A stretch of 38,196 nucleotides of DNA from Spirochaetaceae bacterium (GTDB lineage Bacteria > Spirochaetota > Spirochaetia > SZUA-6 > Bin103): assembly GCA_028821475.1 (NCBI GenBank), contig JAPPGB010000115.1, positions 1 through 38,196 of the forward strand. Direction: 5' to 3'. Position numbers and translations under genes: made by a program. Below, piece by piece: positions 4 to 22,115 of the stretch. Below the pieces are notes generated by a model, which did not search any database, was not told where the DNA came from, and worked only from the letters and a program-made list of their open reading frames with translations. Within the stretch, counting starts at the first letter, position 1, and the number at the start of each line of letters is the position of its first letter.

Positions 4-27
4 CGATGCTCGGGCATCGGTTTTCAT
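4..27 (+). terminator. Possible intrinsic terminator of an upstream gene
   Basis: A perfect 6-bp stem (CGATGC/GCATCG) with a TCGG tetraloop is followed by GTTTTCATC, a short T-rich run. This is the form of a rho-independent terminator for a plus-strand gene ending left of the window. The stem is short and the T-run is interrupted, so the call is tentative. Confidence 0.4.
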
Positions 28-487: not shown

Positions 488-760
488 ATGAATGCACACG
501 ACAGACCTATCCTCAGCTTGGTAAGCGGACCGGGCCAGTTCATCATTCCCCCCGTTCCAGCGGCCTTATCGTTGGAGTGATGAGCCGTGCCTGGTGCTCC
601 TTGATGATGTCGAGCAGGCAGCAGCAGGGTCCGCCTCCGGTGAGCGTCATTTCCTCGGCAGTATCGTCCATTACCCGAGGATCACGGAGTTTGGCTTCAC
701 AACAAGCCTGCTCATCGACGGCCAGCAACGACTTACCACGCCTGGGAGGCATCTGGCAGA
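488..760 (+). pseudogene. GmrSD/DUF262 restriction-type protein, frameshifted N-terminal remnant
   Basis: An ATG at 488 opens a frame that reads into GQFIIPP and then continues, one base out of phase, as FQRPYRWSDE (from about 555), HFLGSIVHY and LLIDGQQRLTT (ending about 738). These are the consecutive hallmark motifs of the DUF262 N-terminal domain found in GmrSD-type modification-dependent restriction enzymes and related proteins; IDGQQR belongs to the nucleotide-binding/cleavage core. The break is explained by one extra C in the run at 548-553. Beyond about 740 the similarity stops, and no C-terminal HNH (DUF1524) part is present. The gene is therefore both frameshifted and truncated. It lies directly upstream of an IS256-type remnant, which may have caused the truncation. 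Domain identity is confident from the motifs. Whether the frameshift is real or a sequencing error cannot be told here, but the missing 3' part makes it a pseudogene either way. Confidence 0.8.
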
Positions 761-6652: not shown

Positions 6653-6690
6653 CCTTGCCTCGCGGAGACCGTAGTGTGTCGTGCAGGAGC

Positions 6691-6719
6691 TTGACAACGG
6701 TGCGCATTCGTCGTGCACT
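6691..6719 (+). promoter_or_regulatory. Candidate promoter for the family-5 binding protein
   Basis: A perfect -35 TTGACA (6691-6696) is followed after 17 bp by TGCACT (6714-6719), about 35 bases before the ATG. AGGAG at 6741-6745 is a strong ribosome-binding site. The -10 is a poor match, so confidence rests on the -35 and position. Confidence 0.45.
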
Positions 6720-6753
6720 GGCCGGCAATCCCAAGGAGAAAGGAGCTTTCGTG

Positions 6754-8802
6754 ATGAGAATTGGAGCGAAGGTGATGGCGCTGGGGTGTGTGCTTGCCCT
6801 GGCAGTCGCGATTCCGGTGTTCGGCGCGGGGGAGGCGGATCAGACCGCCGCCGCACCCGAGGCGGACGAGTCCCCGCGCGCGCTGATCGGCGAGCTGGAG
6901 GGAGTGCGCATCCTGCGTGACTTCGTGCCGGCCACCTACCAGGAAGCGCCGATGCTGGCCGAGATGGTGGCCGCGGGCGAGTTGCCGCCGGTGGAGGAAC
7001 GGGTCGGACCGGAGCCGCTGGTGCTGAAGCCGATTCACGAGATCGGCACGTACGGCGGCACCTGGCGGCGCGGGTTCATCGGGCCCAACGACGGCGCAAA
7101 CGCCACCCGCGCCGTGCTGCACGACCGGCCGCTGCACTGGAACTACACCGAGACCGAGATCGTCCCCAACATCGCCCGCGACTGGGAGGTGAGCGCTGAC
7201 GGCCGTACCACCACCCTGCACCTGCGCCAGGGCATGAGGTGGTCGGACGGTGCCCCGTTCTCGGCCGACGACTGGGCGTTCTGGTATGACCACATGGCCA
7301 CCAACAACGACCTGCGGCGCGGCGGCATCGGCGAACTGATGCTCAACGGCAAGCCGGTGCGTGTGGTCAAGGTGAGCGACACGGCGGTCGCCTTCGTGTC
7401 GGACGACCCCTACTACGGACTGCTCAACAAGCTGGCCAGCACCAGTTGGCTGAGCGGCCACGGTCGCTGGGGTGGCGCCTCCGGCGGCGGATTCGCTCCC
7501 GCCCACTACATCAAGCAGTTCCACCCCGACTTCATCGGCCAGGACAAGGTGGAGGCGATGGCGAAGGAAGCGGGCTTCGACAACTGGGCACTGTTCGTCA
7601 ATGAAAAGAACCGCTCCTGGTTGAATCCGGAGTTGCCGATCGTGTCGGCGTGGCAGGTTACCGTGCCGATCACCGAGGAAACCTTCGAGTGGAAGCGCAA
7701 CGCCTACAGCATCTGGATGGACGAGGCCGGCAACCAGTTGCCCTACATCGACTACATCGTCATGACCAAGGGCGAGAACCTGGAGGTGCTGAACCTGCGC
7801 GCCATCGCCGGCGAGTTCGACTCGATGGCCCGCCACATGGACCTGCGCAAGCTGCCGGTGTTCCTGGAGAACGAGGAGAAGGGCAACTACAAGGTGCACC
7901 TGGACACCTCCCAGCACGGCGGCGACGCGGCGATCTACGTCAACTCCACCTTCGAGGCCGACCCCGAGATCGGCAACTGGCTGGGCAACGTCGACTTCCG
8001 CCGCGCCCTGTCGCTCGGCATCGACCGCGACGCGATCAACGAGGTGTTCTTCCTCGGCCTCGGCACGCCGGGCTCGATCGCGCCCGAGGAGACCACCATC
8101 TACAGCCCGGGACCCGACTCCGAGTGGCGCACCCTGTGGTCCACCCACGATCCGGACACCGCCAACCGGATGCTCGACGAGATGGGGCTGACCGCGAAGG
8201 ACGCCGAGGGCTACCGGCTGCGCACCGACGGCGGCGGCCGGTTGGTGATCGAGTTGATGACCTACCTGTCGTTCATGGACTTCACCGGCCTCGGCGAGAT
8301 GGTGAAGGAGCAGTACCAGCAGATCGGCATCTTCCTGGACGTCAAGGAGTATGAGCGCTCCTTGTCGGCCCGGCGGGTGGCCGCCAACGAGCACCACCTG
8401 ACCATCAACGTGCCGTGGGGAGCCGGCAACGTATTCGGTCACCCCACGGCGCTGTGGCCCAACCGAGCCAACGCCTACCAGGGGCCGCTGTGGGGCGAGT
8501 GGATCGCCACGAACGGCGAGAGCGGCCGTGAGCCGCCCGCCGAGGTGAAGCGGGTGAACGAACTCTACCAGATCGCCAAGATGGCGCCGCCGGACGAGGC
8601 CGCCGAGATGGCCAAGGAGATGTGGCGCATCATCCTCGATCAGCAATGGATGATCGGCACCGTCGGCCTGTCGCCGACCATTCAGGGGGTGCGCATCGTG
8701 TCCAACAACCTGGGCAATATTCCGGCCCGGCAGATGAACAACGCCAACACCTCCAACCCCAACATCTCCCGTCCGGAGCAGTGGTTCTTCAAGAACCTTT
8801 AG
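6754..8802 (+). CDS. Family-5 (peptide/oligosaccharide-type) ABC solute-binding protein
   Basis: The 682-aa product is a large family-5 (OppA/DppA-type) extracellular binding protein. A signal peptide (MRIGAKVMALGCVLALAVAI) is followed by VFGAGEADQTAAAPEADES, an Ala/Glu-rich linker of the kind seen in spirochaetal binding proteins. The family signature follows: IGTYGGTWRR, then the WEVSADGRTTTLHLRQGMRW.DG.PF.ADD block, and later VDFRRALSLGIDRDAINEV. It lacks a lipobox Cys at the signal end. Being longer than OppA (about 540 aa), it fits the subgroup of 600-700-aa family-5 proteins often linked to sugar or polyol oligomers, but the ligand cannot be told. ATG 6754 has AGGAG 8 bases upstream; a GTG at 6751 is a less likely start. 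It converges with the dpp-type permease/ATPase operon at 8942-13241, which has no binding protein of its own, so the two probably form one transporter. Confidence 0.92.
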   Translation: MRIGAKVMALGCVLALAVAIPVFGAGEADQTAAAPEADESPRALIGELEGVRILRDFVPATYQEAPMLAEMVAAGELPPVEERVGPEPLVLKPIHEIGTYGGTWRRGFIGPNDGANATRAVLHDRPLHWNYTETEIVPNIARDWEVSADGRTTTLHLRQGMRWSDGAPFSADDWAFWYDHMATNNDLRRGGIGELMLNGKPVRVVKVSDTAVAFVSDDPYYGLLNKLASTSWLSGHGRWGGASGGGFAPAHYIKQFHPDFIGQDKVEAMAKEAGFDNWALFVNEKNRSWLNPELPIVSAWQVTVPITEETFEWKRNAYSIWMDEAGNQLPYIDYIVMTKGENLEVLNLRAIAGEFDSMARHMDLRKLPVFLENEEKGNYKVHLDTSQHGGDAAIYVNSTFEADPEIGNWLGNVDFRRALSLGIDRDAINEVFFLGLGTPGSIAPEETTIYSPGPDSEWRTLWSTHDPDTANRMLDEMGLTAKDAEGYRLRTDGGGRLVIELMTYLSFMDFTGLGEMVKEQYQQIGIFLDVKEYERSLSARRVAANEHHLTINVPWGAGNVFGHPTALWPNRANAYQGPLWGEWIATNGESGREPPAEVKRVNELYQIAKMAPPDEAAEMAKEMWRIILDQQWMIGTVGLSPTIQGVRIVSNNLGNIPARQMNNANTSNPNISRPEQWFFKNL

Positions 8803-8836
8803 GTTCCATCAAGAACCAATAGGTTCTTGAGAACCT
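8783..8836. repeat. Cluster of GGTTCTT/AAGAACC inverted repeats across a stop codon
   Basis: Alternating copies of GGTTCTT and AAGAACC occur at 8783-8789, 8791-8797, 8811-8817 and 8822-8828, with partial copies at 8801-8806 and 8829-8835. They can fold as AAGAACC-AATA-GGTTCTT or as neighbouring alternative hairpins. The first pair encodes the last residues of the binding protein. No T-tract follows, so the role may be mRNA 3'-end protection rather than termination. Confidence 0.5.
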
Positions 8837-8874
8837 GTAGCACCGTCGGCTGGCTGACCGCCGGCCGCCTGCGC

Positions 8875-8914
8875 AAGAGGGCTCCGCGCGCCGTCGCGCC
8901 GCGGAGTCCTCCTT
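8875..8914. terminator. Bidirectional terminator-like hairpin between convergent genes
   Basis: AAGAGGGCTCCGCG (8875-8888) pairs with CCGCGGAGTCCTCCTT (8899-8914) around a short GC-rich loop, giving a long stem with A's and T's at its base. It sits between the convergent binding-protein and ATPase genes, where a shared terminator is expected. Confidence 0.55.
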
Positions 8915-8941
8915 CATTGGGCGTTCATTGGCCGCCCGCCA

Positions 8942-9982
8942 TCAGGACGCGGCGCCGGTGGTGACGCCGGCCAAGTCGAGGTCGCGGACGTGGTGGCAGC
9001 TTGCCTCGTGGCCGGCGGCGACCGGCTCCAGCGCCGGTTCGCGAGCGTGGCACACATCGGTGGCGTAGGTGCAGCGCGGGTGGAAGCTGCAGCCGGGCGG
9101 CGGGTCGGCGGGGTTGGCCACTTCGCCGCGCAGGATGATGCGTTCGGTGCGCACGCGCGGGTCGGGGCGCGGCACCGCGGACAGCAGCGCCTCCGTGTAG
9201 GGGTGGCGGGGCGCGGCGAACAGCTCCTCGGTGCGGGCCGTCTCCACGATCTTGCCCACGTACATCACCGCAACCCGGTGGCAGAACTGCTTGACCACGC
9301 TCAGGTCGTGCGCCACGAACAGGTAGGAGAGGCCGATCCGGCCGCGCAGGTCGGCGAGCAGGTTGAGCACCTGCGCCTGGATCGACACGTCGAGGGCCGA
9401 CACCGGCTCGTCCGCCACCAACAGGCGCGGCTCCGGCGCCAGGGCGCGCGCAATGCCGATGCGCTGGCGCTGGCCGCCGCTGAACGCGTGCGGGAAGCGG
9501 CGGATGAACTCCGGCCGCAGCCCGACCAGCGTGAGCAGCTCGGCGACCCGGTCCTCACGCTGCGCGCGCGAGCGCATGCCGTAGTTGAGCAGCGGGTCGC
9601 CGACGATGTCGAACAGCGTCATGCGCGGGTTGAGGGAGGAGAACGGATCCTGGAAGATCATCTGCACCTCGCGCCGCACCTCGCGCAACTCGCGGTGGTC
9701 GAGGGTGGCAAGATCGACGCGCTCCCCGGCCCGGGTGCGAAAGTGCATCTGGCCGGAGGTGGGGTCGAGGGCGCGCAGGATGCAGCGCGAGGTGGTGGTC
9801 TTGCCGCAGCCGCTCTCGCCGACCAGCCCGAGCGTCTCGCGCTCGTCGAGGCTGAAGCTGACGTCGTCCACCGCGCGCACCTGGCCCGTTACCCGCCTGA
9901 GCAGCCCCTTGCGGATCGGGAAGAGCTTGGTGAGGTTGCGCACCTCCAGGAGGGGGCCGGCGTCGGCTGGTGAGTCGCTCAT
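8942..9982 (-). CDS. Dpp/OppF-type ABC transporter ATP-binding protein
   Basis: The 346-aa product is the second ATPase of a peptide/nickel/oligosaccharide (Dpp/Opp) importer. It shows Walker [10 protein letters not shown] (about residue 53), the Q-loop [13 protein letters not shown], the ABC signature FSGGQRQR (about 165), Walker [13 protein letters not shown], an H-loop in VAHDLS, and the C-terminal oligopeptide-transporter extension [10 protein letters not shown]. The two ATPases hydrolyse ATP as a pair at the cytoplasmic face of the permeases. The ATG overlaps the TGA of the upstream permease-ATPase gene (ATGA, 9979-9982), so it is translated from the same mRNA. Last gene of the operon, ending at the convergent terminator. 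Confidence 0.95.
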
Positions 9983-12249
9983 CGGGTGCCCACCGGCGTG
10001 TCCTGGTGCGTCGGGTTCAGGAAGCAGCTCGCGCCGTGGCCGGGAGCCACCGGCAGCAGCTCGGGCACGGAGCGGTCGCAGGTGTCGGGGATGAAGGAGG
10101 GACAGCGCGGATGGAACGGGCAGCCGGATGGACGCTCGTTGGGGTGGGGGACGGTGCCGGCGATCGAGTCGAGCTCCTGCCCGGTGGGAGCGGTGATGCT
10201 CGGAATGGAGCGGTGCAGTGCCTGGGTGTAGGGGTGCCTGGGGTTGTGGAAGATGTCGTCGACCGGCGCGCTCTCCACCACGCGCCCGAGGTACATCACC
10301 ACCACCTCGTCCGCCATCTCCGCGATCACCCCCATGTCGTGGGTAATCAGCATGATCGCCATGCCGTGCTCGCCCTGCAGCTCGCGGATCAGGTCCAGGA
10401 TCTGCGCCTGGGTGGTGACGTCCAGGGCCGTGGTGGGCTCGTCGGCGATCAGCAGGCTCGGGCGGCAGGACAGGGCAATGGCGATCATGGCGCGCTGCCG
10501 CAGGCCGCCGGACAGCTCGAACGCGTACGAGTCGATGCGCTGCTCGGGGTTGGGGATGTGCACCTGGCGCAGCGCCTCGATGCCGATCGCACGCGCTTCC
10601 TCCTTGCCGGCCTCGGGCCGGTGCAGCCGGATCGCTTCCAGGAGCTGGGCGTTGACCGTGTGCACCGGGCTGAACGAGGCCATCGGCTCCTGGAACACCA
10701 GCGCGATCTCGCCGCCGCGGATGGCGCGCATCTGCTCGCCGTCCGCATCGAGCGCGGCCAGGTCCAGGATCTCGCCCTGACCGTTGCCGGGCGCGCGCCG
10801 GAACAGGATCTCGCCGGCGACGATCTCGCCGGGGCGGTCGAGGATGCGCAGCACCGAGCGCGCCGTGACGCTCTTGCCGCAGCCGCTCTCGCCCACGATG
10901 CCGAGGGTCTTGCCGGCCGGCACGTCGAAGCTCGCGCCATCCACCGCCACCACGGTGCCCTCATCGACCGGGAAGTGGGTGTGCAGGTCGCGCACCTGCA
11001 GGATCGGCGGCGCGCCGGCGGCGGCGGAGGGCCGCGCGTGCGACCCGTCCGCCGCTCCGGAGGTGCCGGCGCGCGCGATGAGCCGCCGCCGGCGGTCCCC
11101 GCCCTTGCGGCGCGTGGAGGCGTGCTGGGAGTAGGGGTCGGCGGCGTCGCGCACGCCGTCGCCGAGGAAGTTGAAGGCGAGCACGGCGACGATGACCGGG
11201 ATCGCGGGAAACATCAGCCACGGCGTGAGCGCCACGGTCTGCACGTTCTGAGCCGCCTGCAGCAGCGTGCAGTAGCTGACCGCCGGCGGCCGGATGCCCA
11301 GCCCGAGGAAGCTGAGCGCCGTCTCGCTGATGATCATCTGCGGAATCGACAGGGTGATCTCCGCGATGATGTGGCTGTAGAACGACGGCAGCATGTAGCG
11401 GAAGATGGTCTTGGTGCGGCTCGCCCCGGAGAGTTGCGCGGCGGTCACGAAGTCCTCATCGCGCAGCGCCAGGAACCGTCCCCGAACCACCCGCGCCAGG
11501 CCGGTCCAGCCGAGTACCGAGATGATGATGGTGATCGCGAAGTAGATCTGCAGCACGCTCCAGTCGCGCGGCAGGAACGCCGCCAGCCCCATCCAGAACG
11601 GGATCGCGGGAATCGAGCGGATAATCTCGATGGCGCGCTGGATCACCGAGTCCACCACGCCGCCGTAGAACCCGGAGATGCCGCCGAGCAGGATGCCCAG
11701 GAACAGGCTCAACGTCACGCCGACCAAGCCGATAGACATCGACACGCGCGTGCCGTACACCACTCGTGACCAGAGGTCGCGGCCCTGGACGTCGGCGCCG
11801 AGCAGGAACAGGGTCGGCGCCGCGGCGTCGGGCGCACCGAGCAGGTGGATGTCGGTGGGAAAGACCCACAGCAGCTTGTAGGGAAAGCCGCGCGCGAACA
11901 GCCGCACCGGGTACTTGCGGTCCGTGTCCTCGGTGTAGACGCGCTTGAAGGTGCGCGGGTCGCGCGCGCCCTCCACCGCGAACACGTGTGGCTGCAGCCT
12001 GCCGCCGTCGAACCAGTGGATCTTCTGCGGCGGCATCAGCGTGCGCTCCGCTTCCGACAGCGTTGGGTCGTGGACGGCGAAGAACGGTGCGAACAGCGTG
12101 ACCACGTAGAACACGAGCAGCACGACGCCCGAAGCCACCGCCAGGCGGTGGCGGCGGAACCGCCACCACATCAACCGCCACTGGGAGGCGACGAATACCT
12201 GCTCCTGCGCGGTTGCGCCCGACCTCACCTCTGCTACGGCGTCGGCCAC
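9979..12249 (-). CDS. Fused DppC-type permease and DppD-type ATPase
   Basis: One uninterrupted frame (756 aa from GTG 12249) encodes two normally separate subunits. Residues 1-370 form a DppC-type permease: a membrane anchor [20 protein letters not shown], a long periplasmic insert, then the permease core with the cytoplasmic coupling motif [19 protein letters not shown] and the end [16 protein letters not shown] basic, Ala/Ser-rich linker of about 45 residues leads to an ATPase (about 415-756) with Walker A GESGCGKS (about 453), signature LSGGLRQR (about 577), Walker [13 protein letters not shown] and a C-terminal CPFHPRC extension. Start: GTG 12249 lies 2 bases after the upstream permease stop, with GAGGG in front; GTG 12228 is an alternative. 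The frame stays open further upstream to 13263, but that part is the shadow of dppB. Similar permease/ATP-binding fusions are known in databases, so the arrangement is unusual rather than unique. Confidence 0.92.
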
Positions 12250-12251
12250 GC

Positions 12252-13241
12252 TCAGCGGCCCTCGAACCGGATGCGCGGATCGATCAGCATCAGCAGGATG
12301 TCCGAGATCAGCGTGCCGGCCACCGTCATGGCGCCGATCAGCAGGATGATGGTGCCGGCCAGGAACATGTCCTGGGAGAGCAGCGCGCGCAGCAGCAGCG
12401 GCCCCACGGTAGGCAGGCTCAGCACCACCGAGACGATGATGCTGCCCGATACGATGAACGGCAGGATGTAGCCGATGGTGCTCGCGAACGGGTTGAGCGC
12501 CACCCGCACCGGGTACTTCACGATCAGCCGCGACTCCTTCATGCCGCGGGCGCGGGCCGATACCACGTATGGCTTGCGCAACTCGTCGAGCAGGTTGGCG
12601 CGCATGATCCTGATCAGGGTGGCCGTGCCGGCCGTGCCGAGCACCAGCGCCGGCACCCACAGGTGGCCGAGCATGTCGGCCACCTTGGCCAGGCTCCACG
12701 GCGCGGTGACGTACTCGGGCGAGAACAGCCCGGTCACGTTGACGTTGAAGTAGCGGAACGCGAAGTACATCAGCACCAGCGCGAGCAGGAAGTTGGGGAT
12801 CGCCAGGCCGATGAAGCCCAGGAACGTGAACAGGTAGTCGGCGAACGAGTACTGACGGTTGGCCGAGAAGATGCCGATCGGCAGCGCCACCACCCACACG
12901 AACACCACCGCGGCCGCCGCCACCACCACGGTGAGCCACAGGCGGTCGCCGATCACCTCCGCGACCGGGCGGCGGTACTCCATCGAGAAGCCGAAGTCGC
13001 CGCCCGCCATGCGCAGCATCCACTTGAAGTACTGCACCAGGAACGGCTGGTTGAGGCCGAACATGTCGCGGAGCTGCTCTTCCTCGTCGGCGCTGACCAC
13101 GTCGCCCATGCCTTCCAGCTCCTGCACGTAGGCGGTCACGAAGTCGCCGGGCGGGAGTTGGATGAACGCGAACGACACTACCGAGAGCACCAGCACCGTG
13201 CCGATGGCCACGAACACCCGGCGGGTCAGGTACGCCACCAT
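12252..13241 (-). CDS. Dpp/OppB-type ABC transporter permease
   Basis: The 329-aa product is the first permease of a peptide-type ABC importer. It starts with the family's N-terminal anchor (LTRRVFVAIGTVLVLSVVSF), has the LPPGD segment and a periplasmic region ending in GDFGFSMEYRRPV, and then the core helices with the coupling motif YVVSARARGMKESRLIVKYP that docks on the ATPase. It ends ISDILLMLIDPRIRFEGR, typical of DppB. It is the first gene of the minus-strand operon dppB - dppCD fusion - dppF; the fusion begins 2 bases after its stop. The binding protein is absent from the operon and probably is the convergent gene at 6754-8802. Confidence 0.95.
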   Translation of the reverse strand: MVAYLTRRVFVAIGTVLVLSVVSFAFIQLPPGDFVTAYVQELEGMGDVVSADEEEQLRDMFGLNQPFLVQYFKWMLRMAGGDFGFSMEYRRPVAEVIGDRLWLTVVVAAAAVVFVWVVALPIGIFSANRQYSFADYLFTFLGFIGLAIPNFLLALVLMYFAFRYFNVNVTGLFSPEYVTAPWSLAKVADMLGHLWVPALVLGTAGTATLIRIMRANLLDELRKPYVVSARARGMKESRLIVKYPVRVALNPFASTIGYILPFIVSGSIIVSVVLSLPTVGPLLLRALLSQDMFLAGTIILLIGAMTVAGTLISDILLMLIDPRIRFEGR

Positions 13242-13245
13242 GCCG

Positions 13246-13276
13246 GCTATCTTCGCCGCTCACGCGGAGTTGTCAA
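13246..13276 (-). promoter_or_regulatory. Candidate promoter of the dpp-type operon
   Basis: On the minus strand a perfect TTGACA (13276-13271) is followed 18-19 bp later by AGATAG/GATAGC (13252-13246). The predicted start of transcription would fall at or within a few bases of the dppB ATG, implying a leaderless or very short-leader mRNA; no clear ribosome-binding site is present there. Confidence 0.4.
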
Positions 13277-13312
13277 GCGTGACGCGTGGTGGGGTGCGTC
13301 GTGGAGCGGTCG

Positions 13313-14491
13313 TCAGGATGGAGCTAGGCGAAAGGTCACGCGGACGAACTTGTTGCGTTCATCTTGCATGAGTTCCGGCTCGGTACCGTTGAATTCGCGC
13401 ATCTCTCTTTGCATGATCAACCAGCCGCGGCCGCGCTGCTCCATGAACCCCATCGCGGCCATGAAATAGGCCATGGAGTCATTTCTCGACCGGGGATTGG
13501 CGCCGGCGCGCACCCGCTCCACGGTCATGTGGTTCGGCAGCGCGCCGGGACTGGTCACGTCGACACGACCGTCGAACACTTCTATGAGCACCTTGGACCC
13601 GGTAATGGCATAGTCGCGATGCGTGACCGCGTTGACCAGCGCCTCCCGGATCGCCGCTCTTGGCAGCAGGTGGCGGTCTTCGCGGGCCAAGGCATGGTAC
13701 GACTCGAATCGGCCTAGACCCAGGAACCAGCCGACCGCCCGATTCACCTGGTCGTCAAGCCGTCCGGCGGCCGCGGCGACCTGCAGTACCTCCGAGGCGC
13801 GATCGCCGCCGGCGTAGGCAACGCACTCCACTCGAAAGTTGCGGGTCTGCGGATAGCGCTGCGGATCGGTGCCGAATGCGAGCGCGCCATAGAGCGTCGC
13901 GAGAAGCTCGCCGCCTATCTCCGTCAGTACGCCGCGGTTGCGCAGGTCGTCGTCTCTATGCGGTTGCGGCTCTTCCTCGGTGTCGAATCCAAACCGACTC
14001 AGATAGGAGCGGAAGGAGCGCATGTCGATGTGGTCGACCGTAGCGCCATGAATGGCGCGCTCTTCGGTGAGGATGTATCCGAACGTGTTGTAGAGTTCCT
14101 GAAGCTCGGTAGGGGACGGCTCCACACTACTGCGTTCGCGGCGTATCCATACGCGTCCGTCGTAGCGTAGCGGCTCGAAGCCGCGCTGCCTCGGGATCTC
14201 CACCCAGTGCACCCAGCCGCGCGGATCCTGATGGCGCCCGGTGCGCGCGGACACAGGCGTGCTGCAGCCGGTATGGAGAAACGAGGTCAGACGTTCCTGA
14301 ACCTGCTCGCTGTCCCCCTTGACGCCGACTATCTCACGGGCATTGTTGACGCCGAGAATGATGACGCCTCCTTCGGTGTTGGCGAACGCGCAGACCGCCT
14401 TTCCCACGAGCGACAGGTCAAGTCCCCGCTTGAACTCTGTTCGGCGGTCTTCACCCGCCTCGACGCGTTGCAGGATGTCCAGCCACTCCAT
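13313..14491 (-). CDS. AlbA_2 (Schlafen-like) domain protein with C-terminal histidine-kinase-type ATPase domain
   Basis: The 392-aa product begins with an AlbA_2/Schlafen-type domain: EDRRTEFKRG, then VCAFANTEGGVIILGVNNA, the diagnostic core (about residues 15-55), running to about residue 130 with VWIRR. The C-terminal part carries a GHKL/HATPase_c_4-type ATP-binding domain: AAIREALVNAVTHRDY (helix with the metal-binding Asn), a VEVTSPG-like strand (DVTSPGALP) and a glycine-containing lid (QRGRGWLIM). Proteins of this architecture are usually annotated as putative transcriptional regulators or ATP-binding proteins; their roles are poorly defined, and AlbA_2/Schlafen relatives include nucleic-acid-binding and nuclease proteins linked to immunity. 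The start lies 9 bases after the stop of the PHP-ATPase gene with no obvious ribosome-binding site, implying coupled translation. Together they look like a two-gene accessory module. Confidence 0.85.
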   Translation of the reverse strand: MEWLDILQRVEAGEDRRTEFKRGLDLSLVGKAVCAFANTEGGVIILGVNNAREIVGVKGDSEQVQERLTSFLHTGCSTPVSARTGRHQDPRGWVHWVEIPRQRGFEPLRYDGRVWIRRERSSVEPSPTELQELYNTFGYILTEERAIHGATVDHIDMRSFRSYLSRFGFDTEEEPQPHRDDDLRNRGVLTEIGGELLATLYGALAFGTDPQRYPQTRNFRVECVAYAGGDRASEVLQVAAAAGRLDDQVNRAVGWFLGLGRFESYHALAREDRHLLPRAAIREALVNAVTHRDYAITGSKVLIEVFDGRVDVTSPGALPNHMTVERVRAGANPRSRNDSMAYFMAAMGFMEQRGRGWLIMQREMREFNGTEPELMQDERNKFVRVTFRLAPS

Positions 14492-14500
14492 GACCGGCGG

Positions 14501-17254
14501 TCAGAATCCGTACTTCAGGCGGCGCAAGCGGAACGCGTCGTCGCCGCCGTCCACGGTTCGCACGATGGCGTCACGCACCGCCGGATCTTCGATAGCGCCG
14601 GCCTCGGCCACGCGTCCATGATTGGAGCTTGCCTCCAATTGGATCACCTGATCGGCGTCGCCATTCACGACGATGTTGGCGTTGTGCGTCGCTACGATGA
14701 TCTGGCGGCGTCCCTTGAGGCGCTTCAGCGCCGGTAGCACCGTGTCGAACAGGAATCGATTATCCAACTCATCCTCGGGCTGATCGATCACCAAGGGACG
14801 CTGGTCGCTGGTCTCCAACAGCAGGGAGAGCAGGACGCTGACTCGTTGTCCGCCGGAAAGGTCTTCCAACCTTCGATAACTACCGTCGTCCATCCGAAGT
14901 TCCAACACGTACCGATCGGGACAGCGAATGGCCGCCAACTCCCGCCGTTTCGCTTGGCTCATGGCTTCACGGAAAGTAGCTTGAACTGCGCTGCTCATGC
15001 CAACGGAGCCCAACCGATCATCGTCCAGAGCTTCAAGCAGATCGTGTGGCGGGGGTCGCCCGTCGTCAGACGTATCGTTCCACCAGCGTGTTACACCCCG
15101 CTGGTTCAGGCTACGGAGAAATCGATCCAACCGCCGCTGGTCACCTTGGTCAACTCGGCGGGCCACAAATTGACCGTTGAACTCCGATCGCACCGTCTTG
15201 AGGACGCGGTCAAAGGCCGCCCTAATCCGACTGGTGAGATCCGCCCGATCGTCGATCAGTGTTTGGAACGCACGCTCGGCGGATTTGTGCTGGTCCCATG
15301 TCTGCTTGAGCGTAGCCTCGTAGCTCGTGCGGAGAGAAGCATGGCTGCTGAGCGCTTGGAACTCCTTGATCTTCGCCGCGGCCAGGCCGCGGTCGGCTAA
15401 CCCTCGTTCCACGTCGGTCCGGACTGAGTGTTCGTGGTGTTGCAGTGCAGCTGCTGCCTTCTCCATCATCGCGTTCGTTTCTGTCCAGGTTGCAGTGACC
15501 GTCTGAAGTTTCCCGCGGATGCCTCTCCAGCGTTCGCGAAATTCCTGTGGGTTGTTGCTGATGCCCGCTGCCTGCAGGGTGTTAGCCAAGACTGCGCCGA
15601 TCTCGGGTATTTCGAGTGAGGCAGCCGATTGCAGCACACGGTTCAACTCACCCGCCAGTTGTCTTGAGCCATCCGCCGCATCCTGCCATTCCCTAAAGTC
15701 CCGAGATGCACGATGCAGGTTCTCGATGCCGGCGTCGGAGAATGCTTCGAGGTCCTCGGCAGCCTGTTGGCTTCGGTCGAATGCCTGGGCGGCATCGGCA
15801 AGATCCTCATCGAGCTTCGTCAGACGTCGTACTGCGCTGCTTAGCTCCCGGTCGAGAGCCTCCAAGCGGGTCTTCTTGTTCGTGATCTCGCCGATCTCGG
15901 AACTTGCCAACCGAGCGAGGATTTCTTCGATCGCTTCGGGGGCTTGCGCCAATCGCTGCAACTCGTTCTGCGCATGGAATACTGCCGGCCATCGCTCGTG
16001 AAGCGATGAGGTTGAGTCACTCCCAGGGCAATCCAACGAGATCGCCGGCAATCCGCCGAGGAAGCGCTCCCGCGCGCGCGCTTCGACCTGGGCCCTGACC
16101 GCTTCGTCCTGCGGCAGCCTTGCACCCACGTACACGCGCAAGCCGTCGAGCAGGGTACTCTTGCCGGTCATGCTCCCGCCGATGATGCAGGTCAGGTCGG
16201 GGCTGAGGTCAAATCGTGAGTCGCGGTCGTCGGGAGAGCCAAAGAAGGCAGCCCGTCCATTCACCGTAATCGACTTCAGCCACGGGCGTTCACTGACCGT
16301 CACGTCGGGAGCGGGAATCTCGGACAGATCACCGCACTCATTGCGCTCGTAAGCGATGCGCATGCGGGAGTCGCTCGCTATGAAGGCTTGCCGTAGCGAT
16401 TCTATCCTGGGGCTCGCAAGCTTGAACCACGTATGGCGTTTACCAATGTCCTTGACCCGGTATGCATCACTCCCGTGAAAGAACGCTTGTCGGTGTTCTG
16501 CCATTCCGTCTGTCAGCCACCGACGTTTACGCACCGTATCCACTGGCAGTTTCATGTCACCGAGCTCGAGACCGGCTATCTCATCATGCCGAAAGAGCCG
16601 TAACACTTGCGCTTTCTGTGCACCTAGCAATCCCTTGTCATCGTCGATGTGAGGTGCGAGTGTCAGGTAGTTCCACCGAGAAGCACCGCTCCGTGTTGCC
16701 ACGCGAGCTTGGAATTCGCGCAGCTCCCGGAACACACTCGGAGCGCTCTTGCTGGACACTTGTAGCTCGGTGTCGTGCCAAGGAGACACGCCTCCCATCA
16801 GCAAGTCGAACGCTTTGAGATAGTGTTCGCGGCCGATCTCGGGATCGAATATGAACAGCAGGTGCAAGCCGCTCTTGCCGTTGTTCAGTGACGGTTCGAA
16901 ACCCGGAAACACGGCGTATATCTTGTCCCTGAACGGTATGCCGCCGTCGTCCACACCTGCATTCCACTCCTCGACGATCCGCCATGCCGCGCTGATCCCG
17001 TCGTCGACTCGGGGCGAGTGGGGCGTGACGGCGATCACGCGGACGTTGTGCTCGACGGCCTGTTTCAGGAAGCATCGAGCGTAGGCTGTGATGGCTTGTT
17101 CCGAAGTCGCCGGCCCTGGCACGCCCGGCGGCATCTTCGCGCGGCCACCGGGAAGGTCGTCAATGGTGTGGACGTGCAAGTCAGTCTTGAACCAGCGTGC
17201 TCCCGGGACTTCACGATGCCAACTGTCAGTCTTGTTCCGAGTGAACCCAGACAT
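14501..17254 (-). CDS. PHP-domain / SMC-like ABC ATPase (TrlF-like)
   Basis: The 917-aa product (ATG 17254, with GAGG about 10 bases upstream; the frame is open to 17329) fuses three parts. Residues about 18-320 form a PHP metal-dependent phosphoesterase-type domain with KTDLHVHT (His-x-His), VTPHSP, FPGFE, LAPHIDD and FFHGSDAY. About 335-380 contain the ATPase start with Walker A GGSMTGKS (about 359-366). A long helical middle, rich in Glu/Arg/Ala and probably coiled-coil, leads to the second ATPase half with signature LSGGQR (about 799), Walker B PLVIDQPEDELD (about 820) and H-loop VATHNAN (about 857). This SMC/Rad50-like organisation with an N-terminal PHP domain corresponds to what databases call TrlF-family AAA-like ATPases. 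The final metal residue of the PHP set is Tyr rather than His in GSDAY, so phosphoesterase activity is not certain. Local G+C is lower than in the flanking operons (31 of 60 at 16441-16500), suggesting acquisition by transfer. Confidence 0.88.
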   Translation of the reverse strand: MSGFTRNKTDSWHREVPGARWFKTDLHVHTIDDLPGGRAKMPPGVPGPATSEQAITAYARCFLKQAVEHNVRVIAVTPHSPRVDDGISAAWRIVEEWNAGVDDGGIPFRDKIYAVFPGFEPSLNNGKSGLHLLFIFDPEIGREHYLKAFDLLMGGVSPWHDTELQVSSKSAPSVFRELREFQARVATRSGASRWNYLTLAPHIDDDKGLLGAQKAQVLRLFRHDEIAGLELGDMKLPVDTVRKRRWLTDGMAEHRQAFFHGSDAYRVKDIGKRHTWFKLASPRIESLRQAFIASDSRMRIAYERNECGDLSEIPAPDVTVSERPWLKSITVNGRAAFFGSPDDRDSRFDLSPDLTCIIGGSMTGKSTLLDGLRVYVGARLPQDEAVRAQVEARARERFLGGLPAISLDCPGSDSTSSLHERWPAVFHAQNELQRLAQAPEAIEEILARLASSEIGEITNKKTRLEALDRELSSAVRRLTKLDEDLADAAQAFDRSQQAAEDLEAFSDAGIENLHRASRDFREWQDAADGSRQLAGELNRVLQSAASLEIPEIGAVLANTLQAAGISNNPQEFRERWRGIRGKLQTVTATWTETNAMMEKAAAALQHHEHSVRTDVERGLADRGLAAAKIKEFQALSSHASLRTSYEATLKQTWDQHKSAERAFQTLIDDRADLTSRIRAAFDRVLKTVRSEFNGQFVARRVDQGDQRRLDRFLRSLNQRGVTRWWNDTSDDGRPPPHDLLEALDDDRLGSVGMSSAVQATFREAMSQAKRRELAAIRCPDRYVLELRMDDGSYRRLEDLSGGQRVSVLLSLLLETSDQRPLVIDQPEDELDNRFLFDTVLPALKRLKGRRQIIVATHNANIVVNGDADQVIQLEASSNHGRVAEAGAIEDPAVRDAIVRTVDGGDDAFRLRRLKYGF

Positions 17255-17284
17255 TACATCCAAACCTCGGCGATTCCCCGGTGC

Positions 17285-17314
17285 ACTATACGGTACAGCA
17301 CCCGCGCTTACCAA
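17285..17314 (-). promoter_or_regulatory. Promoter of the PHP-ATPase / AlbA_2 operon
   Basis: On the minus strand TTGGTA (17314-17309) and TATAGT (17290-17285) are separated by 18 bp and lie about 30 bases before the ATG at 17254. Both boxes match the sigma-70 consensus at four or five positions, a good promoter for this GC-rich genome. Confidence 0.55.
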
Positions 17315-17318
17315 CCGC

Positions 17319-17334
17319 TTCCCTTGCAAGGGAA
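17319..17334. promoter_or_regulatory. 16-bp perfect palindrome next to the -35 box (candidate operator)
   Basis: TTCCCTTGCAAGGGAA is a perfect 16-bp inverted repeat with no loop, lying 4 bases upstream of the -35 box of the PHP-ATPase operon. This is a typical site for a dimeric DNA-binding regulator. The AlbA_2 protein of the same operon is one possible ligand, but that is inference. Confidence 0.45.
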
Positions 17335-17395
17335 CGCATTCTGTCCGAGGATGCCCGTCGTTGGGACCACTTCATCGTCACCGGTTGTCAGCCCG

Positions 17396-18574
17396 TTACG
17401 CGCTGCGGTAGAGCTTGGTGAGGGAGAACTCGCGGTGGCCGAGGGTTTCGGCGCAGGTGAGGCGGCCGTTGCAGGTGCGGAGGGTCAGGTCGATCAGGGC
17501 GTCGCCGGCCTCGTCGTAGGTCATCTCGCGGCGCAGGATGCCGGATACGTCCAGGTCGATGTGCTCCGCCATGGTGCGCGCGGTGCGCGGGTTGGCGGTG
17601 AGCTTGATCACCGGCTCGATCGGGTGGCCGATCACGTTGCCCTGGCCGGTCGGGAACAGGTGTACCACGAAGCCGGCCGCGGCCTGCAGGGTCACGCACT
17701 CGGCGGCCGCCGACGAGGTGTCCATGAAGTACAGCCCCGGCCTGTCGGGCGGCTCCTGGGCCGGCTCGAGCACGTCGACGAAGCGCGTGCTGCGGCCGAT
17801 CTTCTGCAGGTTGCCGAACGCCTTCTCCTCGATGGTGGTCAGGCCGCCGGCGATGTTGCCCTTGGTGGGCTGCGACTCCGACAGGTCGCTGGTCTTGTGC
17901 GGCTCGATCACCTCGTCCATGTACGCCTGCCAGGTGGCCAGGAACTTCTCCTTCACGGCGGCGGTGGCGGCGCGCTCGGCGCACACCTGCTCGGCGCCGG
18001 TGAGCTCGGAGGTCTCCCCGAAGCAGGAGGTGATGCCGAGCGGGTCGAGCTTGTCGAGCAGGTTGCCGACCGTCGGGCAGGAGCCGCTGCCGGAGGTGGT
18101 GTCCGACTCGCCGCACTTCATCGACAGGTGGAGCTGGTCGATGCCGCACTCCTCCCTGCGCAGCTCCGAGGCCCAGATCGCGAATTCCTGGGCGGTGCGG
18201 GAGGCGGCGGCGATGGTGGCCAGATCGCCGTGTTCCTCGATCGAGAAGCCGGCCACCGGCTTGCCGGTGGCGCCGATGCCGTCCACCACCCGCGCGGTCC
18301 AGCCCGGCTCAATGCCGATCACCACGCACGCCGCGACGTTGGGGTTGCAGCCGGTGCCGATGATGGTGCGGAAATACAGCTCCAGGTCGGCGCCGAACTG
18401 CAGGCGTCCGTAGGCGTGCGGAATCGCGAGCGTGCCCTTGATGTTGTTGGCCACCGCCTCGCAGGCGGCGTTGGAAATGTCGTCGAGCGGCAGGATCAGC
18501 ACGTGGTTGCGGATGCCCACGCGGCGGTTCGCGCGCCGGTAGCCCCAGAACGAACCCGGCAGAGTCGCAGCCAT
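17396..18574 (-). CDS. suyB: UxaA-family lyase, resembling (2R)-sulfolactate sulfo-lyase large subunit SuyB
   Basis: The 392-aa product belongs to the UxaA/GarD (altronate/galactarate dehydratase) family: [20 protein letters not shown] at the start, [39 protein letters not shown], a [10 protein letters not shown] cluster whose conserved Cys is of the type that binds the metal centre, [17 protein letters not shown], and the closing [14 protein letters not shown]. The detailed sequence, and the split into a small and a large subunit, recall SuyB, which with SuyA cleaves (R)-3-sulfolactate to pyruvate and sulfite. Altronate or galactarate dehydratases are usually one longer chain with the SAF domain fused. 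The start lies 1 base after the stop of the small-subunit gene, so the pair is coupled. It closes an operon with a sugar-type ABC importer, which may bring in the substrate. Family is certain; the sulfolactate assignment is from remembered similarity and moderately sure. Confidence 0.75.
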
Positions 18575-18575
18575 G

Positions 18576-18860
18576 TTACCAGCGCCTCGTCTTGACGTTG
18601 TGCACGTGTACGTGACGGCCCGCGCCGATCGGCGCGATCGCGCGTCCGATGTCGTGGCCGTACTTGATGATGGAGTCGCCGGGGGCGATCTCGGTGAGCG
18701 CGATCTTGTGCCCGAGCGGAATCGGATCGTGGGCCCGTATGGTGACCGTGACGTCGCCGTCCATCAGCCAGCCGGTCAGCTCCTGCTCTGCCCCGATGCC
18801 CTCCGCAACCGCCACTCCGACGGTATCTTCTTTATGGTGAATAACATAGTGCGTAGCCAC
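18576..18860 (-). CDS. suyA: SAF-domain small subunit, resembling sulfolactate sulfo-lyase SuyA
   Basis: The 94-aa product is a stand-alone SAF/UxaA N-terminal domain: FVIHHKED-like start ([17 protein letters not shown]), [30 protein letters not shown], and [20 protein letters not shown]. The HVHVHN ending is the conserved feature of these subunits. In split enzymes such as SuyAB this subunit completes the active site of the large one. The GTG at 18860 is the only reasonable start; the upstream gene ends TAGGAGG, so its stop codon runs into a strong Shine-Dalgarno sequence (18876-18880), although the 15-base spacing is long. Directly followed by the large subunit. Confidence 0.75.
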
Positions 18861-18879
18861 TGGTGTCCGTGAAATCCTC

Positions 18880-19734
18880 CTAGCCTTTCAGCGCTCCGCT
18901 GGTAAGTCCCTTCACGATGCGCTCGTGGAACAATACATAGATGATGATGCTCGGGACGATGGTAACCACGATCGCCGCGAACATCGCCGTGTAGTCGGTA
19001 AAGAACTGGTGCACGAAGTGGCGGATGCCGAACTGGACGGTGCGCACCTGCTGGCGCGAGGTGAGCAGCAGGGCATAGATGAACTCGTTCCAACCGAACA
19101 GGAACACGAACGTGCCCGCGGTCACCAGGCCCGACTTGGACAGCGGGAACACCACCTTGGTGAAGCGCTGCAGGAAGGTCGCGCCGTCGATCACCGCCGC
19201 CTCCTCCAGCTCGAACGGAATCGACTTCATGTAGCCGTGCATCAGGTAGGTCGAGATCGGCAGGTTGATCCCGGTGTAGGTCAGGATCAGCGCCAGCCGC
19301 GTGTCGTACAGGCCGAGCGCGTTGATCAGCCGGAAGTAGGGCGCCATCAGCCCGATGATCGGGATCAGCACGCCGGCCAGGATAAGGCTCAACAGCACCC
19401 CGCTGAACGGAAACCTCTCGCGCGCGAACACGAACGCCGCCATCGAGGTCACCAGCACGGTGATCGCGGTGGACGCGAACGAGATGATGATGCTGTTGCG
19501 GAACAGGCCGAACAGCCCGGCGATCCGGAACGCCGTCACGTAGTTCTGGAACTGCCACACCTCCGGCAGCGCGAACGGCCGCGTGGTCAGCTCCAGGTTG
19601 GTCTTGAAGCTGGAGATCACCAGCCACAGCAGCGGCACGAACGTGAACACCAGGAAGAACCCGAGCACCAGCCACTTCCCGGTGCGCCCGGATGCCACCC
19701 CGAAAGTCATCCGCGCGCCGGCGATATCGCTCAC
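18880..19734 (-). CDS. Sugar-type ABC transporter permease (MalG/UgpE-like)
   Basis: The 284-aa product is an inner-membrane permease of the carbohydrate uptake 1 type. Six hydrophobic segments are recognisable, beginning WLVLGFFLVFTFVPLLWLVI. The cytoplasmic coupling motif reads ELEEAAVIDGATFLQRFTKV, followed by FPLSKSGLVTAGTFVFLFGWNEF, characteristic of MalG-type proteins. It pairs with the permease encoded at 19744-20634 (9 bases between them) and the binding protein at 20720-21985. No ATPase gene is in the operon, so a shared MsmK/UgpC-type ATPase encoded elsewhere is expected. Its stop overlaps the ribosome-binding site of the following SAF-domain gene. Confidence 0.93.
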   Translation of the reverse strand: MSDIAGARMTFGVASGRTGKWLVLGFFLVFTFVPLLWLVISSFKTNLELTTRPFALPEVWQFQNYVTAFRIAGLFGLFRNSIIISFASTAITVLVTSMAAFVFARERFPFSGVLLSLILAGVLIPIIGLMAPYFRLINALGLYDTRLALILTYTGINLPISTYLMHGYMKSIPFELEEAAVIDGATFLQRFTKVVFPLSKSGLVTAGTFVFLFGWNEFIYALLLTSRQQVRTVQFGIRHFVHQFFTDYTAMFAAIVVTIVPSIIIYVLFHERIVKGLTSGALKG

Positions 19735-19743
19735 CGCGGCCTC

Positions 19744-20634
19744 CTATTGCGCCGACTCGGACGCGGCATCGCGCCTGCCGACGGTGGTGCGGATCAGCGT
19801 GATCAGCGCCAGGCCGATCAGCACCAGCGTGCCGCCGGTGGCGTTGGCGTGCCCGTAGTCCAGGGCGGCGGTCATCTTGTAGAGTTGCAGGCCGAGCACC
19901 GTGGTGCGGAACGCGGGACCGCCGTCGGTGAGCAGGAAGGTCGCCTCGAAGTGGCGCAGGGCGAAGGCGGTGGCCAGCGTCATGGTGGTGATCAGGATCG
20001 GCTTGAGCATCGGCAGGGTGATGTAGCGCTCCTGCTGCAGCACGTTGGCACCGTCGAGCTGGGCGGCGTCGTAGTAGCTCTCCGGGATGGTCATCGCGTA
20101 GGCCAGGATGATGATCATGAAGTAGCCGATGTAGAACACTTCCTGGGTCAGTATGGCCGGCAGCGCGGTGGCCAGCTCGCCGAGCCAGTTGCGCGTGAGG
20201 TGCGCCGCCCCGAGCCGTTCCAGCGCCTGGTTGATGATGCCGTACTCGGCGTTGTAGATGGCCCGCCACATCATCGCGATCGCCACCTGGCTGATCACCA
20301 CCGGAACGAAGTAGACCGTGCGCAGCAGCCGCCAGGCGAACGGCTGCCGCGCCAGGATCATCGCCACCAGCGCGGCCAGCGCGATCTTGCCGACCGCCAG
20401 CGCCGCCACCCAGACGAAGTTGTTGCGTAGCGCGAACTGGAACTGGCGCGCCTGGAAGTTGTCAAGGTAGTTCTGCACGCCCACGAACACCGGCGCCGTG
20501 ATGCCGTTCCACTCCAGCGTGCTGATCACGAACACGAAGCCGAGCGGGTACACGAAGTACATCGCGAACAGGGCCAGTGTCGGGGCCAGGAACACGGCGC
20601 GCCAGAACCAGACCCGGCTGGACCGCACTGTCAT
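19744..20634 (-). CDS. Sugar-type ABC transporter permease (MalF/UgpA-like)
   Basis: The 296-aa product is the partner permease. It starts with a short basic tail and a first membrane helix (AVFLAPTLALFAMYFVYPLG), and carries the EAA-type coupling motif in the form SYYDAAQLDGANVLQQERYI followed by TLPMLKPILITTMTLA, as in UgpA/MalF proteins. GGGAGGCGG about 8 bases before the ATG is a good ribosome-binding site. An intrinsic terminator lies just upstream (20657-20696), so its expression probably depends on read-through from the binding-protein gene. Confidence 0.93.
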   Translation of the reverse strand: MTVRSSRVWFWRAVFLAPTLALFAMYFVYPLGFVFVISTLEWNGITAPVFVGVQNYLDNFQARQFQFALRNNFVWVAALAVGKIALAALVAMILARQPFAWRLLRTVYFVPVVISQVAIAMMWRAIYNAEYGIINQALERLGAAHLTRNWLGELATALPAILTQEVFYIGYFMIIILAYAMTIPESYYDAAQLDGANVLQQERYITLPMLKPILITTMTLATAFALRHFEATFLLTDGGPAFRTTVLGLQLYKMTAALDYGHANATGGTLVLIGLALITLIRTTVGRRDAASESAQ

Positions 20635-20656
20635 CGCATCACCGCCTCCCCATGCG

Positions 20657-20696
20657 AAAAGAAAACGACCCGCCGCCTGGTGAGACAGCGGGTCGT
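20657..20696 (-). terminator. Intrinsic terminator/attenuator between binding protein and permease genes
   Basis: On the minus strand ACGACCCGC pairs perfectly with GCGGGTCGT (20696-20688 and 20673-20665, 14-base loop), followed by TTTTCTTTTC (20664-20655). This is a classic rho-independent terminator. It lies 24 bases after the binding-protein stop and 20-odd bases before the permease start, so it should lower permease expression relative to the binding protein. Confidence 0.85.
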
Positions 20697-20719
20697 CCCA
20701 TCATCGAACTCCGGCCGGG

Positions 20720-21985
20720 CTACCGGTTGGCGTCGACCAGCATCTGCACGAACTCGGCCGGCGTCGCCTCGCCGAGCGCCATCGCCGCGAGCGCCTCCTT
20801 GAACGTGTCCACCACCTGCACCTTGTGGGCGACGGTAAGCGGAGGGATCACGAACGTCGCGTCGCTGCTGGCCTGCACGAACGCACGCTGCAGCGGGTCC
20901 GCCGCGTCGGTGAGCTCGTACTTGATCGAGAACATCGATCCCGCCGACTCGCTGACGAAGCGGACGTTCTCGGGATCGGTCATGAACTGCATCCACGTGA
21001 CCACCGCCGCGCGCCGGTTCGGATCGTCGGTGTTCGCGGCCGCCAGGTTGGACAGCATGAACCCGATCTGGTGGCCGTGGTGGTCGCCGACCTGAGGCGC
21101 CGCCGCCACCTTGGTGGCCGAGTAGGTGTCCGGCGCGTCGTTGCGGATGCGGCCGATGTACCAGGGGCCGTTCAGGAACACCGCGGTGTTGCCGGCCATG
21201 TAGTGGCCGCCCGACACGCCGGCGTCGCCGCCGACCGCGTCGCGGGTGGTGTTGCCGTCCTGGTACAGGCGCATCAGCACCGCCGCCGCCTGCTCGAACA
21301 CCGGGTCGGACAGCGGCTTCGACCACACGTCGGGGCCGCCGATGCTGCCGGCCAGGTGGCTGAACCACAGCATGCTGGTCCACGCGTTGCCGCCACCGGT
21401 CATCTGGCTGGTCGGCACGATGTCCGCCGCCTTCAGCGCGTCGGCCAGCGCCCAGAACTCGTCCATCGTTGCCGGGAACTCGTCGTACCCGACGGTGGCG
21501 AGGTGCGCGCTGTTGTACCAGATCGGCGTCAGGCCGATCTCGTACGGGACGGTCTTGGTGCGGCCGTTGCGCGTGCTCGCCTCGATATAGCCGGACACGA
21601 AGTTCTCCGACCACGGCCCGCTCAGTTCCTCGGTGAAGTCCATCAGCACGTCGGAGTCGTAGTACTGGAAGGTGGTCGGGTTGGGGGAGAAGATGAACAG
21701 GTCGGGCGCGCTGCCGCTGGCAAGCTGCGTATTCATCTTGTCCGCGTACCCGTCGTAGTCGGGGATGCCCTCCAGCTCGATACGAATCGCGCCCTCGTTC
21801 TCCTCGTTGAAGCGCTCGATCAGCGCCGCGATGGTCTCCGACTTGGAGTCGGGCGGCACCCAGATCGTCGGCCAGTCGAGCACCACCTCGCCTGCCGCCC
21901 CTTCCTGGCCGGGGGCACCCATCACCGGCGCCGCGGCCGCCAGCACCAGGGCTCCCACCAGGAACCCCATCAATAGTCGTCGCAT
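20720..21985 (-). CDS. Family-1 (sugar-type) ABC solute-binding protein
   Basis: The 421-aa product is a family-1 extracellular binding protein, the class that serves MalFGK/UgpAEC-type importers. A signal peptide (MRRLLMGFLVGALVLAAAAP) is followed by VMGAPGQEGAAGEV, and the mature protein has the family hallmarks IAALIERFNEENEG, then YADKMNTQLASGSAPDLFIF, GNTAVFLNGPWYIGRIRN and GHQIGFMLSNLAAAN. AGGAGG 4 bases before the ATG is near perfect. The ligand is not predictable; such proteins bind oligosaccharides, glycerophosphodiesters or other polar compounds. Given the SuyAB-like lyase downstream, an organosulfonate or an acidic sugar is possible. Followed by a terminator, consistent with higher expression than its permeases. 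Confidence 0.93.
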   Translation of the reverse strand: MRRLLMGFLVGALVLAAAAPVMGAPGQEGAAGEVVLDWPTIWVPPDSKSETIAALIERFNEENEGAIRIELEGIPDYDGYADKMNTQLASGSAPDLFIFSPNPTTFQYYDSDVLMDFTEELSGPWSENFVSGYIEASTRNGRTKTVPYEIGLTPIWYNSAHLATVGYDEFPATMDEFWALADALKAADIVPTSQMTGGGNAWTSMLWFSHLAGSIGGPDVWSKPLSDPVFEQAAAVLMRLYQDGNTTRDAVGGDAGVSGGHYMAGNTAVFLNGPWYIGRIRNDAPDTYSATKVAAAPQVGDHHGHQIGFMLSNLAAANTDDPNRRAAVVTWMQFMTDPENVRFVSESAGSMFSIKYELTDAADPLQRAFVQASSDATFVIPPLTVAHKVQVVDTFKEALAAMALGEATPAEFVQMLVDANR

Positions 21986-22008
21986 ACTTCCTCCTGTTGC
22001 GTCCCCTG

Positions 22009-22037
22009 AAATAATCGAACACGAGCCCGCGGGTCAA
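22009..22037 (-). promoter_or_regulatory. Candidate internal promoter before the family-1 binding protein
   Basis: On the minus strand TTGACC (22037-22032) stands 17 bp before TTATTT (22014-22009), or 15 bp before the better -10 GATTAT (22016-22011). Either fits a start site close to the AGGAGG. The AT-rich -10 area stands out in this genome. Confidence 0.4.
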
Positions 22038-22115
22038 GTTCCTGTGTCACTCCGTCACCCCGGCCGCGACGAGTCGGGCGTGCATCCATGAATCCGGGCA
22101 GGACCAGCGCCCCGG

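Follow-up and report, generated by a model that had tools for sequence, protein, structure and literature searches.

A mobile TrlF-TrlG gene pair in a Spirochaetaceae bacterium as a probable accessory immune module

Two adjoining genes in a 38,196-nucleotide stretch of DNA from a Spirochaetaceae bacterium (assembly GCA_028821475.1, contig JAPPGB010000115.1; 'the window', meaning that whole stretch) encode proteins of the TrlF and TrlG types, and together they form a stand-alone member of the TrlF-TrlG (TRL) family that is probably a mobile accessory module of immunity. Since relatives of the pair lie so often inside restriction or BREX operons, we consider it most likely, judging from sequence comparison, that the pair helps the bacteria to resist invading DNA. 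An initial annotation had already read the locus as a defence module, and the genome context of its relatives supports that reading; its statement that no such system had been defined did not hold, and neither the promoter nor any special meaning of the palindrome was supported.

Results

The gene pair and its proteins

Both open reading frames were confirmed as the tightly linked pair that had been described, on the minus strand (Table 1), and the short spacer between them is consistent with a single transcript. The first gene likely begins at the ATG at 17254 rather than at the TTG at 17329, because the alignment with its relatives begins there.

Table 1. Features of the gene pair and its cassette (window coordinates, or residues of the TrlF protein where so marked)
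Feature	Position	Strand	Basis
trlF-type gene (gene 1), 917 aa	14501..17254	-	NF045780 match, AlphaFold2 model, residues
trlG-type gene (gene 2), 392 aa	13313..14491	-	Pfam, AlphaFold2 model, invariant GHKL residues
Spacer from trlF stop to trlG start, 9 bp	14492..14500	.	
Inserted cassette, 4109 bp, exactly two genes	13286..17394	.	absent from syntenic site of same-genus genome L300
Perfect 16-bp palindrome TTCCCTTGCAAGGGAA, upstream of trlF	17319..17334	.	
PHP domain of TrlF	residues about 20-300		
TrlF SMC/Rad50-like ATPase lobe 1, Walker A GGSMTGKS	residues 359-366		
TrlF coiled coil	residues about 440-690		
TrlF ATPase lobe 2: signature, Walker B DQPEDELDN, H857	Walker B at residues 824-832		

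The product of the first gene matches the NCBIfam model NF045780 (TrlF family AAA-like ATPase) over positions 2-944 of 944, scoring 374 bits (cut-off 350). Three sister TrlF sequences score 326-338 bits, just under the same cut-off, and the window TrlF therefore lies at the divergent edge of the family. This match, together with the PHP ligands and SMC-type folds described below, confirms the assignment of the protein as a PHP domain fused to an SMC/Rad50-like ATPase. Pfam recognizes only the ATPase (AAA_21, SMC_N); the PHP model PF02811, which matches 13 of 43 relatives, finds no match in the window TrlF, where the domain is too divergent. The PHP ligands D25, H27, H29, H79, E120, H131, H202 and D263 are present, with P78 at the aspartate position of the 'TDH' motif and Y265 at the position of the last histidine. 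The Walker A, signature and Walker B motifs, the switch histidine, the coiled coil and the fold of an SMC/Rad50-type ATPase were all found, the Walker A carrying S-M where 36-37 of 39 sequences carry R-G. In an AlphaFold2 model of the protein (pLDDT 86) the N-terminal domain is accompanied by a coiled coil and a pair of ATPase lobes; the best fold matches of the model are to the heads of SMC, MukB, JetC (Wadjet), Rad50, LmuB (Lamassu) and RecN.

The second protein had been described as an AlbA_2/Schlafen domain joined to a GHKL domain, and Pfam matches both: SLFN_AlbA_2 at residues 14-123 (E 9e-18) and HATPase_c_4, the GHKL ATP-binding domain, at residues 298-387 (E 2e-19). The best fold match of its AlphaFold2 model (pLDDT 90) is to 3lmm, followed by SLFN11/12/13/14 and the ATP domains of histidine kinases. 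Its GHKL residues are invariant. When aligned to SLFN chains, the positions of the Schlafen triad correspond to E14, E19 and N50; the window TrlG thus departs from E-E-D, the catalytic triad of SLFN11/13. E-E-D is present in 39 of 64 TrlG relatives, and the TRL-type branch carries E-Q-D/N.

A discrete, compositionally foreign cassette

Comparison with a same-genus genome (L300) revealed an empty site, in which the sequences flanking the pair are contiguous, with 11 bp between them: window positions 13207-13285 match L300 5225-5303 at 90% and positions 17395-22038 match L300 5315-9983 at 91%. We therefore conclude that the pair lies on a discrete cassette. The lower G+C content noted earlier is borne out (61.3% in the cassette, 68.4% in the rest of the window), and the GC3 values of the two genes are 0.70 and 0.77, compared with 0.94-0.97 in five neighbouring genes. 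Because its composition is foreign, gain of the cassette by the host lineage is favoured over its loss from L300. The genome with the empty site has a different TrlF-TrlG pair, of another branch, elsewhere (L084). A dpp-type transporter operon beside the cassette (window 6213-13206) is also missing from L300 (4672-5224), indicating that the insertion site is generally variable.

The surroundings are, as had been stated, metabolic and unrelated to the pair, consisting of transport and sugar-acid (galactarate-type) genes. Neither HsdM, HsdS or HsdR nor any other defence gene was found beside the pair, which stands alone within the window, and a genome-wide search for PglZ and BrxL returned no match, indicating a host genome without BREX. 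Elsewhere the host genome contains several N6-methylase genes and about a dozen matches to TrlG-like AlbA_2/GHKL proteins; at contig C105 (431-3282) another AlbA_2-GHKL protein adjoins an N6-methylase gene.

Three further observations concern the window itself. The galactarate-dehydratase-like gene at 17399-18860 consists of two separate open reading frames (94 and 392 aa), comparable to two-part UxaA-type enzymes. A protein encoded at 25727-26680 is weakly similar to APH(3') aminoglycoside phosphotransferases, scoring far under the family cut-off. Permeases of the Opp/Dpp type (DppB-type, as at window 12252-13241) gave 146 matches in the host genome; one genome of the same genus had 89, and each of the other genomes searched had 1-18.

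The palindrome upstream of trlF exists as described, and a special meaning for it is not supported: the window contains four perfect 16-bp palindromes, and the upstream regions of the three closest relatives have none. The possibility that it is a conserved operator was accordingly rejected. The promoter attributed to the pair fared no better, with one site found where 0.7 would be expected, which is not above chance.

Relatives of the pair in restriction and BREX operons

Relatives of the pair are located in defence operons and not in conserved housekeeping neighbourhoods. Restriction-modification (R-M) or BREX genes lie at most 6 kb from TrlF at 14 of the 27 host-phylum loci, whereas 40 control regions drawn from the same genomes have none (Fisher 2e-7, an optimistic value because the reference set came partly from other TrlF loci, with self-hits excluded). 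The same conservative search placed R-M or BREX genes near TrlF in 21 of 80 cases in a wider set.

The arrangements span type I, II and III restriction as well as BREX. Type I R-M operons show two arrangements, HTH-HsdR-TrlF-TrlG-HsdS-AAA-HsdM, as on an IncC plasmid, and HsdM-HsdS-TrlF-TrlG-HsdR; a BREX operon reads pglX-TrlF-TrlG-pglZ-brxL, and further pairs are found in Eco57I-type loci and in type III Mod/Res loci. One type I R-M locus, which has a GmrSD gene too, contains TrlF without TrlG.

The most telling context is that of the window's own branch. Its three nearest relatives (L092, L093 and L094) share 48-51% identity with the window TrlF and 54-67% with its TrlG. The pair of L094 directly follows BrxL. 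That of L092 shares an island with type I R-M genes, a CBASS cyclase, an E1-E2 protein and a SAVED-HNH effector. In L093 the pair is just downstream of PglX and is followed by a second TrlF-TrlG pair; the two pairs, which belong to different branches, stand in tandem at 9001-18985.

Pairing, distribution and co-evolution

TrlF scores above the cut-off in 20 of 393 genomes of the host phylum, a sporadic distribution. The two genes nonetheless occur together widely, rather than rarely: in a genome-collection scan with one genome per species, 44 full-length TrlFs had an adjoining TrlG and 19 were solo, and in the phylum set TrlG was directly downstream of 13 full-length TrlFs, with 10 solo. Across the 27 phylum loci, TrlG directly follows TrlF in most, and overall 33 of 102 TrlFs (about a third) are without it. 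A genome of the same order (L088) carries the pair, its TrlG being essentially identical to that of L130. Over 60 pairs the distances among TrlFs and among TrlGs are correlated with a Mantel r of 0.957 (the best of 2000 permutations reached 0.146), and the two trees have 35 of 57 bipartitions in common.

Carriage of relatives on plasmids and prophages was also seen. Scans of viral contigs with single sequences gave no match; profile scans did, and in these contigs TrlF is almost always without TrlG. One solo TrlF lies in a P2-like Yersinia phage between gpA and Q, which is the tin/old position, a known site of defence cargo. A 14-kb record of a Vinavirales (PM2-like) Vibrio phage has, next to an integrase, a TrlF-like gene split over two annotated ORFs (L358 1334-3959).

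These data bear on whether TrlG is merely a nucleic-acid-binding transcriptional regulator of the operon, with TrlF alone as the immune effector, a proposal that we regard as unlikely. The many TrlFs lacking TrlG would accord with it, as would the annotation of related AlbA_2-GHKL proteins as transcriptional regulators in some records and the state of the triad, with a break in the TRL-type branch and an alteration in the window protein. Invariant GHKL residues and tight co-evolution, however, suggest a physical, ATP-using partner of TrlF, and all published escape mutations within the Photorhabdus operon are in trlG and not in trlF (PMC7554251).

Comparison with the temperature restriction locus and other systems

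It had been stated that no two-gene system of this exact composition was defined. That statement is incorrect, since the trlF-trlG genes of the Photorhabdus temperature restriction locus (TRL), published in 2020 (PMC7554251), have the same composition. In Photorhabdus laumondii the locus is an operon, trlR-trlF-trlG, of which a copy is also found on plasmid pYR3; it is induced by a temperature up-shift, and its published phenotype, an arrest of Photorhabdus growth at 36 °C, is lifted when trlG is mutated or the operon deleted (PMC7554251). The word 'phage' does not occur in the text of that paper.

The TRL (in Photorhabdus and on pYR3) has the same two proteins in the same order as the window, where trlF is directly followed by a trlG with AlbA_2 and HATPase_c_4 domains. 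In the TRL TrlG these domains span residues 14-128 and 298-365, compared with 14-123 and 298-387 in the window protein. The pYR3 copies are about 23% (TrlF) and 26% (TrlG) identical to those of the window and differ from them in the PHP signature (N78/K265 rather than P78/Y265) and in TrlG, with Q in place of E19. Unlike the TRL, the window pair is without trlR: no gene for such a regulator was found upstream of trlF, where 141 bp separate it from the next gene and contain no such ORF.

The locus might instead be a stress- or temperature-responsive growth-arrest locus, as the TRL was described, in which induced TrlG inhibits growth and immunity is secondary or absent. The induction of the TRL by a temperature up-shift, and the growth at 36 °C permitted by its deletion or by trlG point mutations, speak for such a function. 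A physiological thermostat would nevertheless hardly be expected to be mobile, to occur sporadically and to lie within R-M and BREX operons; the window has neither a trlR-type regulator gene nor room for one, and growth arrest could just as well be a by-product of an immune module that acts abortively. We consider this explanation quite improbable.

Less probable again is a restriction-linked addiction cassette, similar to a toxin-antitoxin system, that stabilizes its carrier mobile elements and R-M operons and is not an immune effector. Plasmid and prophage carriage, the relief of growth arrest by TrlG mutations and the exact two-gene composition of the cassette would be expected of such an element, but solo TrlF is common, and loss of the whole TRL operon is tolerated in Photorhabdus, so that post-segregational killing is not apparent there at normal temperature. 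There is very little probability that TrlF is a DNA repair enzyme of the SbcCD/Rad50-Mre11 type with PHP replacing Mre11, as its fold matches to Rad50, SbcC, RecN and SMC heads might suggest, since the defence SMCs JetC and LmuB match the fold equally well, the family is rare and sporadic in the phylum and clusters with R-M and BREX genes, and its PHP ligands are often changed.

Several other defence systems resemble the pair in part. Ppl (NF042955) is a PHP domain fused to an SMC-like ATPase whose C-terminal ATPase region matches the window TrlF; it is a single-gene system, whereas the window pair has TrlG. The PHP domain of E. coli Ppl is an NTP-inhibited 3'-5' ssDNA exonuclease (PMC12904381), and thus provides a precedent for PHP as an exonuclease effector. 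Identification of the first gene as Ppl itself was rejected (159.5 bits against a cut-off of 1000 for NF042955), as was Spaf_1101, for which the score is far under that family's cut-off. Lamassu LmuB and Wadjet JetC share an SMC-type head and coiled coil and match the fold of the window TrlF; the window pair differs in having no kleisin and no separate effector gene of the LmuA type, with a PHP effector in cis.

BREX-linked proteins combining AlbA_2/Schlafen and minimal histidine-kinase domains have the same domain types as the second gene, according to the passages of PMC12839542 that concern them. Those passages list the Schlafen gene, taken to be a BREX-linked backup RNase, for at least 1017 taxa; they do not describe a TrlF partner. 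PARIS (the AriA OLD-ABC ATPase and the AriB Toprim nuclease) likewise couples an ABC-type ATPase gene to a partner gene and, in the part of the same source that deals with it, is recruited to BREX loci as a backup, which on that account offers a precedent for such a pair inside BREX loci. The window pair lacks a Toprim domain, and the similarity of its ATPase core to AriA is weak (34.5 bits). TrlF-TrlG may already have been reported as a defence system, for example in a preprint on bacterial Schlafens.

Variation at the two active sites

Of 60 pairs, 13 keep both the PHP ligands and the Schlafen triad, 19 are altered only in TrlG, 25 only in PHP, and 3 at both sites (Fisher 1e-4). At least one PHP ligand is altered in about half of paired relatives, and cutting by PHP is therefore not a universal output. 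The tree traces the distribution mainly to two old events, a change from H-x-H to Q-x-N in one TrlF branch and from E19 to Q in one TrlG branch, to which single cases such as L092 are added; the apparent exclusion is therefore a pattern and not proof. In the window TrlF, which has P78 and Y265, the PHP set is retained; the triad of the window TrlG is E-E-N. In L092 (8977-11730), a TrlF of the window's branch has a destroyed PHP site, with C, Y, M and R at the positions of H27, H79, E120 and H131, and its TrlG has E-E-D.

A broader proposal, which we put forward tentatively and regard as possible though doubtful, is that methylation-based immunity, whether type I, II or III R-M or BREX, has in TrlF-TrlG a general add-on guard whose two nuclease centres, PHP in TrlF and Schlafen in TrlG, are alternatives, so that lineages lose either one but rarely both; temperature restriction in Photorhabdus would then be autoimmunity. 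Both the window's clade (PHP kept, E-E-N) and L092 (PHP dead, E-E-D) fit such a rule.

Discussion

For an accessory immune module, the reading that we prefer, we infer the trigger, the substrate, the division of labour (an ATPase that senses and a PHP domain that cuts) and the immune phenotype as follows. TrlF would form an ATP-driven head dimer of the SMC/Rad50 type that engages foreign or damaged DNA, such as ends or DNA that has escaped restriction, and its N-terminal PHP domain, a putative metal-dependent phosphoesterase, would be its own effector, acting like the anti-phage protein Ppl. TrlG, apparently a constant partner of TrlF in the window's lineage, would bind nucleic acid through its AlbA_2/Schlafen domain, and in some lineages may cut it, while its GHKL domain would bind ATP and gate the response. 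Upon triggering, nucleic acid would be degraded or growth stopped. Within R-M and BREX operons TrlF-TrlG would be a fallback to methylation-based restriction; in the window it appears to have been gained alone. Several points weigh against this reading: gene neighbourhood is indirect evidence, no defence gene was found beside the window pair and no PglZ or BrxL in the host genome, the published phenotype is growth arrest with escape mutations in trlG and none in trlF, and the window proteins have N at the third triad position and S-M in the Walker A motif.

What was published as a thermal growth switch is thereby recast as a probable mobile immune module, tied to R-M and BREX systems across many phyla, and in the window it is represented by a clean cassette of two genes whose empty site is known. 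If correct, this reading would explain why proteins of the TrlF family (often annotated as 'histidinol phosphatase' or 'chromosome partition protein'), and likewise recG-like 'RNA-binding' proteins, recur in restriction operons, resistance plasmids and prophages.
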